From: Tritonibacter multivorans
GTDB taxonomy: Bacteria; Pseudomonadota; Alphaproteobacteria; Rhodobacterales; Rhodobacteraceae
Length of the DNA stretch: 64,000 bases
Reading direction: 5' to 3'
Assembly: GCF_001458415.1 (NCBI RefSeq)
Contig: NZ_CYSD01000043.1
Span: 124,001-188,000 of the forward strand
Shown here: in pieces, positions 1-4,126 of the stretch
Layout: every line of letters starts with the position of its first letter
Numbering within the stretch: position 1 is the stretch's first letter
The notes under the pieces: model-generated
Seen by the model: the letters and a program-made list of their open reading frames with translations, nothing else
Databases searched by the model: none
Told to the model about the DNA's origin: nothing
Made by a program: the position numbers and the translations under genes

Positions 1-2198
<2,198 letters not shown>

Positions 2199-2237
2199 TC
2201 ACGTTCCGCACAAGTGTTCTCAATTTTGTTCGCAAAT

Positions 2238-2252
2238 GTTCCTAAAAAGTTC
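2238..2252 (+). promoter_or_regulatory. Alphaproteobacterial LexA (SOS) box, GTTC-N7-GTTC
   Basis: GTTCCTAAAAAGTTC is an exact match to the GTTC-N7-GTTC direct repeat described as the LexA site of Rhodobacter-type alphaproteobacteria. Three more GTTC words lie just upstream, at 2203, 2216 and 2228, so five copies fall within 50 bases. The box is 78 bases before the start of a small membrane protein gene. Operator function is inferred from the pattern alone. Confidence 0.65.
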
Positions 2253-2329
2253 TTTACTCGAATCGGGGTAAATGAGAACAAATAGGCAACAAGCGGCACA
2301 GCCGCCCGACAGAGCAGAGGAGAGAGAGT

Positions 2330-2452
2330 ATGGTGGCCCAGATCAAATCGACCGTTCGCAATGCACAATCCACATTGCTGCAGGATATTGCCGGCGCTGC
2401 TGCGCTGGTGGTGATGCTTGTCGTGGCGCTGCATTTGCCGAGCCTTGTGTAA
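2330..2452 (+). CDS. Putative SOS-induced single-pass membrane microprotein (40 aa)
   Basis: ATG at 2330 opens a 40-codon frame ending at TAA 2450-2452, preceded by a purine-rich ribosome-binding site (GAGGAGAGAGAGT). The first 18 residues are polar and include VRNAQSTLLQD. Residues 20-39 form one hydrophobic stretch (AGAAALVVMLVVALHL), a likely single membrane helix. A LexA box sits upstream and a terminator-like hairpin downstream, giving a complete monocistronic unit. Caulobacter SidA, a 29-residue SOS-induced division inhibitor, has the same design, but I see no sequence identity that proves homology. Function is unknown; an SOS checkpoint role is inference. Confidence 0.6.
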   Translation: MVAQIKSTVRNAQSTLLQDIAGAAALVVMLVVALHLPSLV

Positions 2453-2665
2453 ACAAAGTCGACGGCACGGCGTCTTTGGCATGCCGATATGCCTGCGATG
2501 GCCCTTTGCGGCTGCTAATTGATTTTCTTCATTAGTTTCTTGGTTCTTCGCGTTTTCATGCCGGGCGCGCCCTGCCTATGTCCCAAAGGGATCTTCCGCC
2601 CGTGGATCCCGCATCAGTCATGCTGATGTTGGCGCGACCCGGGTCCCGCATGAAGTCGCTGCACT

Positions 2666-2704
2666 GCCGCCGCCATCTGCCCGGATGCGCGGCGGCTTTT
2701 TTTA
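2666..2704 (+). terminator. Rho-independent terminator after the SOS microprotein gene
   Basis: GCCGCC at 2666-2671 can pair with GGCGGC at 2691-2696 and is followed by a run of eight T. It ends plus-strand transcription and overlaps the stop codon of the convergent chemoreceptor gene. The 200 bases between the microprotein stop and this hairpin hold no convincing frame. Confidence 0.6.
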
Positions 2705-4126
2705 CTGGATCTTATAGGCCAGCCGCAGGCCACCCCAATGGCGTCCTTCCACTTTGATTGGGGCGGAAAGGTCTTTCATCAGGACAAATTCGCCGCCCCC
2801 CATATCGCGTCGGTAGACCTGCAACAGGAAGGCACCGGTGCTGCGCCCGGCCTTTAGGCCGACACGGTCATCAAAGATCCGCCGGTTGCGGCAATTGGCC
2901 ATGTTCCACACTGGATCAGCCGAGGGGGGGTGCGAAAATTTCTTGTTATGCGTCGGCAGATAGCCATTTGTGTCAACGGCGGCGCTGAACACCACGCGCG
3001 GGTCAAGATCGAGGGCTTTTTCCAAAATCTCTGGTAGCAGCCGATCCGTAAGCGGGGTGAATTTTGCCATGAGCTGCTGTGGATCGGTGCCGCCAATGGG
3101 TTTGTATTTGCGGTCGAACAGATCATCCCGGCTGATCGCGCCTTCCGCGACGGCCTGCGAAAATCTTTCGCTGATTTCCTGAGCAGAGGCGATTACATGG
3201 TCGATGAACTTCCCATCCGAAGAACGGCCCCCCAAAGCCACCGTGCCCTGAACCAGTTGCTCTGACACGCTGATCAGCTGCTCCACCCGTTCATGTGTCG
3301 CGTGGATGCCGGTGCTGGTCTCATCGACGGAGGCGCCAATGGCGCCGATGTCGGTTTGAAAGGCCTCAACCGTGCCCTGAACACTCTGCGCCTCGCTGCC
3401 GATTTCGGTATTGCGGCTGGCGACCTGCTGCATATGTGTTTCAATGTCAGCCAGTGCCCGATCCGTGTCCTGGGATTGCTCCAGAACGGTTTTGGCGGTT
3501 GCGGCGACTTCAAAGGACTGTGTTTGCAACCCTTCGATCCAATCGGCCAAAGTATTGATATTGCCGCTGATCTGTTCGGCTGCGGTCTGGGTGCGCAGGG
3601 CCAGTTCGTTGATGGCCTCTGCCACGACCGCAAAGCCACGCCCGGCCGCGCCGGCGCGGGCGGCTTCGATTTTGGCATTGATGGCGAGGATGTTCACTTG
3701 CGACGCGATAGAAGAAATCTGCGCATTGTCGGATCGCATGGCTGTGACCGCGTCGGTGACGGCCTCGGTCCGTCCGCTCAGGTCATTGACCCATTCCGCC
3801 ATTTCCGTGGTGCTTTGACTGCCGCTGCGCACCGATTGCGCAGAGTGTTCCACAGAGGTGATCATCTGCGTCACCGCGTCAGAAACCTCCGAGACGGTCT
3901 GCATCATGCGCCCGTTTGACTCGACCACTTTGGTGGCGCCCTGTTTCAATGCGTTAAGATTGGTTTTCTGCGTTTCGGCCTTGGTCTCAAGATCATCCAG
4001 AAACCCAGCGACATCCGCAATCTCGAAGCCAAGCTGGGAAGACAGCTTGGCAATGTCATTCAGGCCGTCTTCCTGTGCCAGGGTTTCGGCGGGCACAGTG
4101 TCGGAAAAGTCGTGACGGGCGTGCAT
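2702..4126 (-). CDS. Soluble methyl-accepting chemotaxis-like protein
   Basis: This 474-residue protein has no membrane segment. Residues 45-310 are a long helical region. At residues 144-178 it carries a chemoreceptor signalling tip, [20 protein letters not shown] then [12 protein letters not shown]. The usual NAAIEAARA reads NAKIEAARA and the following residues differ from the consensus. The C-terminal 120 residues contain [11 protein letters not shown] and a [13 protein letters not shown] stretch, resembling the small C-terminal sensory domain of cytosolic receptors. No che genes lie nearby, so the partner kinase is unknown. It could act in chemotaxis or in a related signalling complex. 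Confidence 0.85.

Follow-up and report, generated by a model that had tools for sequence, protein, structure and literature searches.

In our study, a small gene unit was found directly after recG on the forward strand of the window (the whole stretch of 64,000 nucleotides of Tritonibacter multivorans DNA that was analysed). The unit codes for a 40-residue peptide with one predicted membrane helix, and its message appears, from the sequence, to continue into a conserved folded RNA. Comparison of related loci has shown that the candidate promoter, the one-helix frame, the covarying RNA and the terminator are retained together in nearly all of the members examined. We read this as an autonomous, damage-linked unit specific for the family Rhodobacteraceae with two outputs, a membrane peptide and a 3' small RNA (sRNA), which would restrain growth or division; the probability of this reading is put at about 0.5. 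The original prediction overlooked the structured 3' RNA; the unit is larger than was described, and the RNA is the larger surprise.

The small gene and its conservation

The upstream neighbour recG (108–2198, forward strand) contained the Pfam domains RecG_wedge, DEAD, Helicase_C, and RecG_dom3_C. Its stop codon was found 131 bases from the start of the small frame, which shares its strand, starts with ATG at 2330 and ends with its stop codon at 2452, giving 40 codons (2330–2452). The ATG is preceded by the strong ribosome-binding site AGAGGAGAG at nucleotides 2316–2324, as had been predicted originally. The single helix and the polar N-terminus of that prediction were also borne out. AlphaFold2 gave a single helix from residue 2 to 39 for 57 members (mean pLDDT 85.5), and the mean hydropathy of 131 members was −0.3 over residues 2–19 and 2.0 over residues 21–38. 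Because of this hydropathy and the positive N-terminal residues, the peptide presumably sits in the inner membrane with its N-terminus inside.

The peptide gene is without a convincing counterpart in Pfam, NCBIfam, and PHROGs. The small frame of the window had no match in Pfam even at E 1. In NCBIfam, searched with 29 members, one family was matched by 3 members (best E 0.006), and in PHROGs, also searched with 29 members, two families were matched by 1 member each (best E 0.004); both results were taken as chance. An origin from a mobile element was rejected since no plasmid or phage match was found at E 1. In viral contigs, 24 stretches fitted a pattern, but none of them was a relative.

A search with the single peptide sequence matched 204 of the 295 Rhodobacteraceae genomes, and a profile of 29 members matched 253 of the 295 (252 of 294 genera) and 224 of the 260 good genomes. 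Each listed genome contained one match except G046, which contained two. Among 385 genomes sampled across the class, five of the family matched the peptide well, and outside the family only 4 weak matches were found, which were taken as chance. Three of these lay inside frames of 118 to 770 aa, one of them with a stop, and the fourth was a 35-aa frame (E 0.009). Relatives in other alphaproteobacteria were rejected on this sample.

The loci for comparison were 174 taken from protein matches, minus 9 duplicates, leaving 165 relatives besides the window. They are not a random sample: before the removal of duplicates, 29 and 80 of them were best matches, a further 60 were taken from lower down the profile-search list (including G157 and G196, which are without detected lexA), and the last 5 were from genomes without detected lexA. 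The predicted position right after a recG of the same strand was kept in 162 of the 165 loci; of the three exceptions, two have just 700 upstream bases. The script-called start was ATG in 164 of the 165 loci, and the product was 38–42 aa long in 163 of 164 and exactly 40 aa in 131.

For the 131 products of 40 aa, the median dN/dS was 0.07 for close pairs (57) and 0.25–0.52 in three bins of more distant pairs, the bins omitting pairs too saturated or too close. The majority base had a share of 0.69, 0.82, and 0.52 at the codon positions 1, 2, and 3, respectively. From its presence in 253 of the 295 family genomes and the median dN/dS of 0.07–0.52, the frame is judged to be a real gene under purifying selection; the lack of conservation and the ratio near 1 that had been named as arguments against the original prediction were not what was found.

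The residues D19, G22, L34, and P37 were invariant among 57 aligned members. On a different reading, the sRNA would be the real product, and the frame would be incidental or a leader peptide whose translation only protects or times the RNA. Such a reading would fit the RNA and the terminator being about as widely retained as the frame in the examined loci. However, the constraint on the residues reaches the C-terminal end (in 131 members, D19 was conserved in 130, L34 in 129, and P37 in 127), and the length changes among 29 aligned members were limited to two residues inserted close to the N-terminus and a single residue at the C-terminal end. We hold it to be very improbable that the peptide is only a leader.

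The promoter and its candidate regulator

The region between recG and the frame contained, as the original prediction had described, an array of five GTTC words (2203–2252, forward strand). They begin at 2203, 2216, 2228, 2238, and 2249, with a spacing of 10–13 bases. Five GTTC within 55 bases were found only once in 928,000 strand-bases (the window and 400,000 bases of the same genome). The last two words form the exact GTTC-N7-GTTC site GTTCCTAAAAAGTTC (site A, 2238–2252), a candidate LexA operator abutting the −35-like element TTTACT (2253–2258), which is TTTACA in most relatives. The −35 role is suggested by the 116 aligned promoters, and a promoter scan of the window listed nothing at this element. 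This was followed by TGAGAAC-N7-CAAC (site B, 2273–2290), a further candidate site of LexA-like form that would cover the presumed −10/+1, where TGAGAACAAA was present in 145 and the second word CAAC in 139 of the 165 relatives. Site B resembles the recA box GAAC-N7-GAAC.

The GTTC-N7-GTTC site, whose presence downstream of recG in relatives was to be checked, was found at most 250 bases upstream of the start in 164 of the 165 loci, and the triple GTTC-N6-GTTC-N7-GTTC was kept in 144. The box nearest the start was at −26 in one of the 164 loci and between −69 and −120 in the rest. The only locus without a box (L220, genome G157) had a 75-aa frame, and its genome had no detected lexA and an estimated completeness of 80%. 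The consensus of 116 aligned promoters was GTTC-RCAAAT-GTTC-TYAAAAA-GTTC-TTTACA-N14-TGAGAACAAAGGGGCAACAA; these promoters were selected for having the box and give no box frequency. The exact 30-base form of the consensus was found in 116 of 196 genomes with one copy each, and in the reversed control it was found 0 times. Tritonibacter multivorans itself is outside those 116, having GTTCC where the form asks for GTTCT. The bare GTTC-N7-GTTC is common, the genome containing 131 copies of it and 110 of the reversed control, and such counts alone are no evidence. In these comparisons it is the conservation of GTTC-N7-GTTC, not its occurrence, that exceeds chance.

In 30 lexA and 30 recA loci, the script found 27 and 26 starts, and boxes were present before 26 and 23 of these, respectively. 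A LexA weight matrix was built from 32 lexA and 24 recA boxes, and the known boxes were scored leave-one-out. The median score was 13.7 for site A (164 loci) and 14.1 for site B (151 loci), and only 6 of 1,145,542 background windows, from the flanks of 80 related loci, reached the medians of the sites. The 56 known lexA/recA boxes had a median of 22.1, a 10th percentile of 14.8, and a minimum of 12.8; both site medians thus fall under the 10th percentile. Of the 56 boxes, 50 had T before the second GTTC, 6 had C, and none had A, whereas this base was A in 115 of the 116 aligned promoters of the small gene. The half-sites ATGTTCTC and TGAGAACA of the small-gene promoter are the halves found in recA boxes. 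In relatives, the recA promoters contained AATGTTCTCTTTTTGATC followed by GAAC-N7-GAAC and the small-gene promoter AATGTTCTCAAAAAGTTC followed by GAAC-N7-CAAC. In the family, AATGTTCTC-TTTTT-GATC and then GAAC-N7-GAAC was found before recA, and AATGTTCTC-AAAAA-GTTC and then GAAC-N7-CAAC before the small gene (139 of 165). Many recA promoters of the family (L264–L292) were found to keep an upstream GTTC-N7-GATC besides the downstream GAAC-N7-GAAC.

Six of the 260 good genomes were without lexA by Pfam. The gene was missing in 4 of these 6 against 32 of the 254 others (Fisher p 0.004), a co-absence that is confounded by small genomes losing many genes together and by kinship. Absence by Pfam is also fallible, as the lower-grade genome G233 has a piece of lexA that Pfam missed. 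Two of the six lexA-negative good genomes, G160 (460 contigs) and G150 (3 contigs), kept the gene; both the gene and the box are retained in G160 and in four genomes of lower completeness or purity that are likewise without detected lexA. In G150, estimated to be 100% complete, recG is followed by a diverged frame (E 0.003) together with GTTCTTACTAAGTTCTTTACACGTTC, and the promoter of this frame retains GTTC-N7-GTTC-TTTACA. A search of G150 with the full LexA query gave nothing but a frame of 149 aa that matched in its C-terminal part; this frame is probably UmuD because the adjoining one looks UmuC-like by eye. The 3' region of the G150 locus (L257) was much shortened, with one CTGCCTG ahead of the terminator.

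The LexA-box control claimed originally was upheld only in part: the box itself recurs in nearly all loci, but the operator is atypical in the base before its second GTTC, and G150 keeps the box while its LexA is not detectable. With candidate sites of this atypical kind, LexA control of the promoter is plausible, and we incline towards it. The main text of the D. shibae LexA-target paper does not mention recG. Candidate LexA boxes of T. multivorans picked by eye for AT-rich spacers (L142, L144, L146, L151) were found before lexA, IMS-family polymerase, OB-fold, and TfoX_C genes.

A dual-output unit could also stand outside the SOS response, the GTTC array being the site of another regulator, for example a direct-repeat activator like those of the OmpR family. 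Response regulators of the OmpR family bind direct repeats. Three to four GTTC words at periods of 10–11 bases right upstream of TTTACA, the A in place of T before the last GTTC, the array retained in G150, and the exact composite present as a single copy per genome, where present, would all fit such a regulator. However, the match of the half-sites with the recA-box halves speaks against it, and the motifs described for CenR (TGA-N8-TGA; PMC9275681) and ChvI (TTGC-N3-GCAA; PMC9731502) do not match the GTTC array, so that both were rejected. A regulator other than LexA is a real possibility, to which we give clearly less than an even chance. On the preferred reading, LexA would repress from site A (GTTC-N7-GTTC), next to the −35, and from site B (GAAC-N7-CAAC), which covers the −10/+1, in a two-site layout that parallels recA of the same family, and DNA damage would raise transcription; judging from the promoter comparison, we consider this fairly probable.

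Another alternative is a type I toxin-antitoxin pair in which damage would induce a peptide that depolarises the membrane; such a peptide would likewise be tiny, with one helix and a LexA-like promoter. Most type I toxin-antitoxin pairs are not known to be near-universal within a family, unlike the frame described here, and the leader from the promoter to the start was little conserved in its aligned part, which also argues against such a pair. The likeness, by description, is to TisB/IstR-1 of E. coli, where TisB is an SOS-induced small membrane peptide that depolarises the inner membrane (PMC8145889). We think it quite unlikely that the unit is of this type.

The terminator, the 3' RNA and mraZ

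The original prediction had the unit ending at an intrinsic terminator. The terminator exists, but it was found ~210 nt beyond the frame, not at its end (2666–2703, forward strand), with the stem GCCGCCGC...GCGGCGGC and seven T, on the evidence of sequence, fold, and covariation. A consensus scan of the window did not list it. A GC-rich hairpin with a T-run was present in 160 of 162 sequences (the window plus 161 relatives whose downstream sequence reached 200 bases or more; L072 was excluded since its downstream sequence looked misassigned), ending 109–276 nt past the stop. A stricter first finder gave 139 of 163. In 90 sequences from 127 representatives, 7 of the 10 predicted pairs of the stem showed changes on both sides. 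A convergent gene with an MCP signalling domain was found at 2702–4126, and the stop codon of this gene and the terminator's T-run overlap.

The stretch from the frame to the terminator (2453–2665, forward strand) is, by the tests of motif, folding, and covariation, a covarying multi-hairpin RNA. The heptamer CTGCCTG was observed 111 times and CTGTCCC 90 times in 86 mutually diverse sequences, against 3 expected for each from dinucleotide shuffles. The number of CTGYCY per RNA was 3.1 against 0.4 in single-base shuffles, and only 3 of 86 RNAs were without any CTGYCY. The bases of CTGYCY were in hairpin loops in 41% of cases against 15% overall, and those of CTGCCTG/CTGTCCC had an unpaired probability of 0.72 against 0.39 elsewhere (60 of the 86 sequences). 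The fold energy without the terminator had a mean z of −2.1, with 30 of 60 below −2, and for the whole 3' stretch of the window z was −3.0. In the predicted fold of the window, the closing stem runs from 2550 paired with 2659 inwards to 2571 paired with 2631, and the unpaired stretch 2572–2587 contained CTGCCT (2572–2577) and GTCCC (2580–2584).

When 90 loosely aligned 3' regions were folded to a consensus, the terminator alone was recovered; therefore, an alignment-free test and a clade of 28 members were used. The 42-base end arms were found to pair better within than between species, with 65 of 84 in the best quarter and 26 of 84 in the best 5%. Own-species pairing was in the best quarter for 44 of 66 TGTCCC flanks, followed by the weaker GCCTC flanks (19 of 40), and the CTGCCTG flanks showed little of it (mean rank 0.44; 16 of 46 in the best quarter). 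In the clade of 28, the closing stem TCTCATG/CATGAGA contained compensatory exchanges, of CG for TA and of AT for GC or GT. Rfam gave no match in the window from 2190 to 2730, even at E 1.

The CUGYCY loop motif points to an RNA or protein partner. On our reading, the 3' part would work as an sRNA, either free or processed, with CUGYCY loops that would pair with mRNAs or bind a protein; this is tentative, and we rate it a little short of an even chance. The original version, in which the peptide alone is an SOS-induced, SidA-like division inhibitor and the 3' part a stabilising untranslated tail, would agree with the size, the one helix and the four invariant residues of the peptide, with the LexA-like promoter, and with the precedent of the 29-aa SidA (PMC4211646). 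It leaves the repeated loop motif and the covarying 3' stems unexplained, and we regard it as unlikely.

Returning to the preferred reading with two outputs, a target of the RNA was sought in the dcw cluster. In R. sphaeroides, the sRNA StsR is described to lower the dcw transcript via its long leader, the source of UpsM, and the UpsM-type dcw leader is described as exclusive to Rhodobacteraceae (PMC5089854, PMC11354728). Since StsR acts on the dcw leader, mraZ, the first dcw gene, was examined, and the script placed 21 mraZ starts among 30 loci. GGGACAG, the complement of CUGUCCC, was found at most 40 bases from the mraZ start in 8 of the 21 loci, compared with 2 occurrences among 392 gene starts of T. 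multivorans; mraZ of T. multivorans was without GGGACAG. With the seed CCUGUCCCAA, 14 of the 21 mraZ passed the 5% control threshold, and two other seeds gave 7 and 8. The median was −13.7 in mraZ, followed by −10.6 in recA (25), −9.6 in lexA (26), and −8.6 in 388 genes of T. multivorans, whose own mraZ ranked 15th of 388 against its own loop. These controls come from one genome, some starts called by the script belong to spurious frames, and the orthologues are related to each other, so mraZ is a weak candidate target and a lead only. A GTTC-N7-GTTC site, GAACAATATGGGAAC (L152, C39:89327), was found close to the dcw leader, ~500 bases ahead of the first match to an mraZ domain.

Known systems and the proposed function

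Previous studies reported that SidA of Caulobacter crescentus is a 29-aa SOS-induced protein of the inner membrane whose interaction with FtsW blocks division (PMC4211646), and that the Caulobacter LexA regulon has GTTC-N7-GTTC boxes (PMC4211646, PMC12700426). SidA, with the SOS-independent DidA, is what these papers name as the damage-induced division inhibitor of an alphaproteobacterium. By description, the recG-linked peptide is like SidA in being a tiny, presumed inner-membrane protein of an alphaproteobacterium with a GTTC-N7-GTTC promoter; a very small protein with one membrane helix, for which membrane insertion is predicted, is what was found here. It differs from SidA in its 40 aa and in being trailed by a conserved 3' RNA. 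A damage-induced division inhibitor for Rhodobacteraceae was not found in the open-licence papers searched.

The 3' RNA recalls DinR of Klebsiella pneumoniae, an sRNA from the 3' part of the LexA-controlled dinI that represses ftsZ (PMC10907235). Both units would have an mRNA with an sRNA in its 3' part, LexA control being reported for dinI and a candidate here, and a conserved 3' region ending in an intrinsic terminator was found, with covariation, in the relatives described above. According to the same report, DinR is processed from within dinI and pairs with ftsZ through a stretch specific for Klebsiella (PMC10907235), whereas the recG-linked RNA is conserved across the family, contains repeated CUGYCY motifs, and has only a candidate target.

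Within the family, UpsM and StsR of R. sphaeroides are similarly sRNAs tied to division (PMC5089854, PMC11354728); StsR, compared by description, differs in being under RpoHI/HII control and, by its description, non-coding. For Paracoccus denitrificans, a published list contains sRNAs conserved across Rhodobacteraceae (intergenic 134, intergenic 60, and others), and recG is not named in that text (PMC5107571). The 3' RNA may be one of these already listed sRNAs, StsR or those of P. denitrificans, with which it has so far been compared by description.

For the joint output, the peptide would act at the membrane like SidA and the RNA on a division transcript like DinR, together restraining growth or division. 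This is a conjecture drawn from the analogies, and we consider it rather doubtful. Its most specific form is a family-wide damage checkpoint on one transcript, which LexA would release, with the peptide acting at the divisome and the CUGYCY loops silencing dcw translation at mraZ; this form we regard as improbable.

The gene is of interest since it was present in most of the sampled genomes, belongs to no convincing library family, and is coupled to an RNA with a repeated loop motif. The gene is real and its promoter is conserved; the SOS label is plausible, and the unit is perhaps a brake on growth after damage. If the checkpoint were true, Rhodobacteraceae would halt division at the level of protein and RNA simultaneously.
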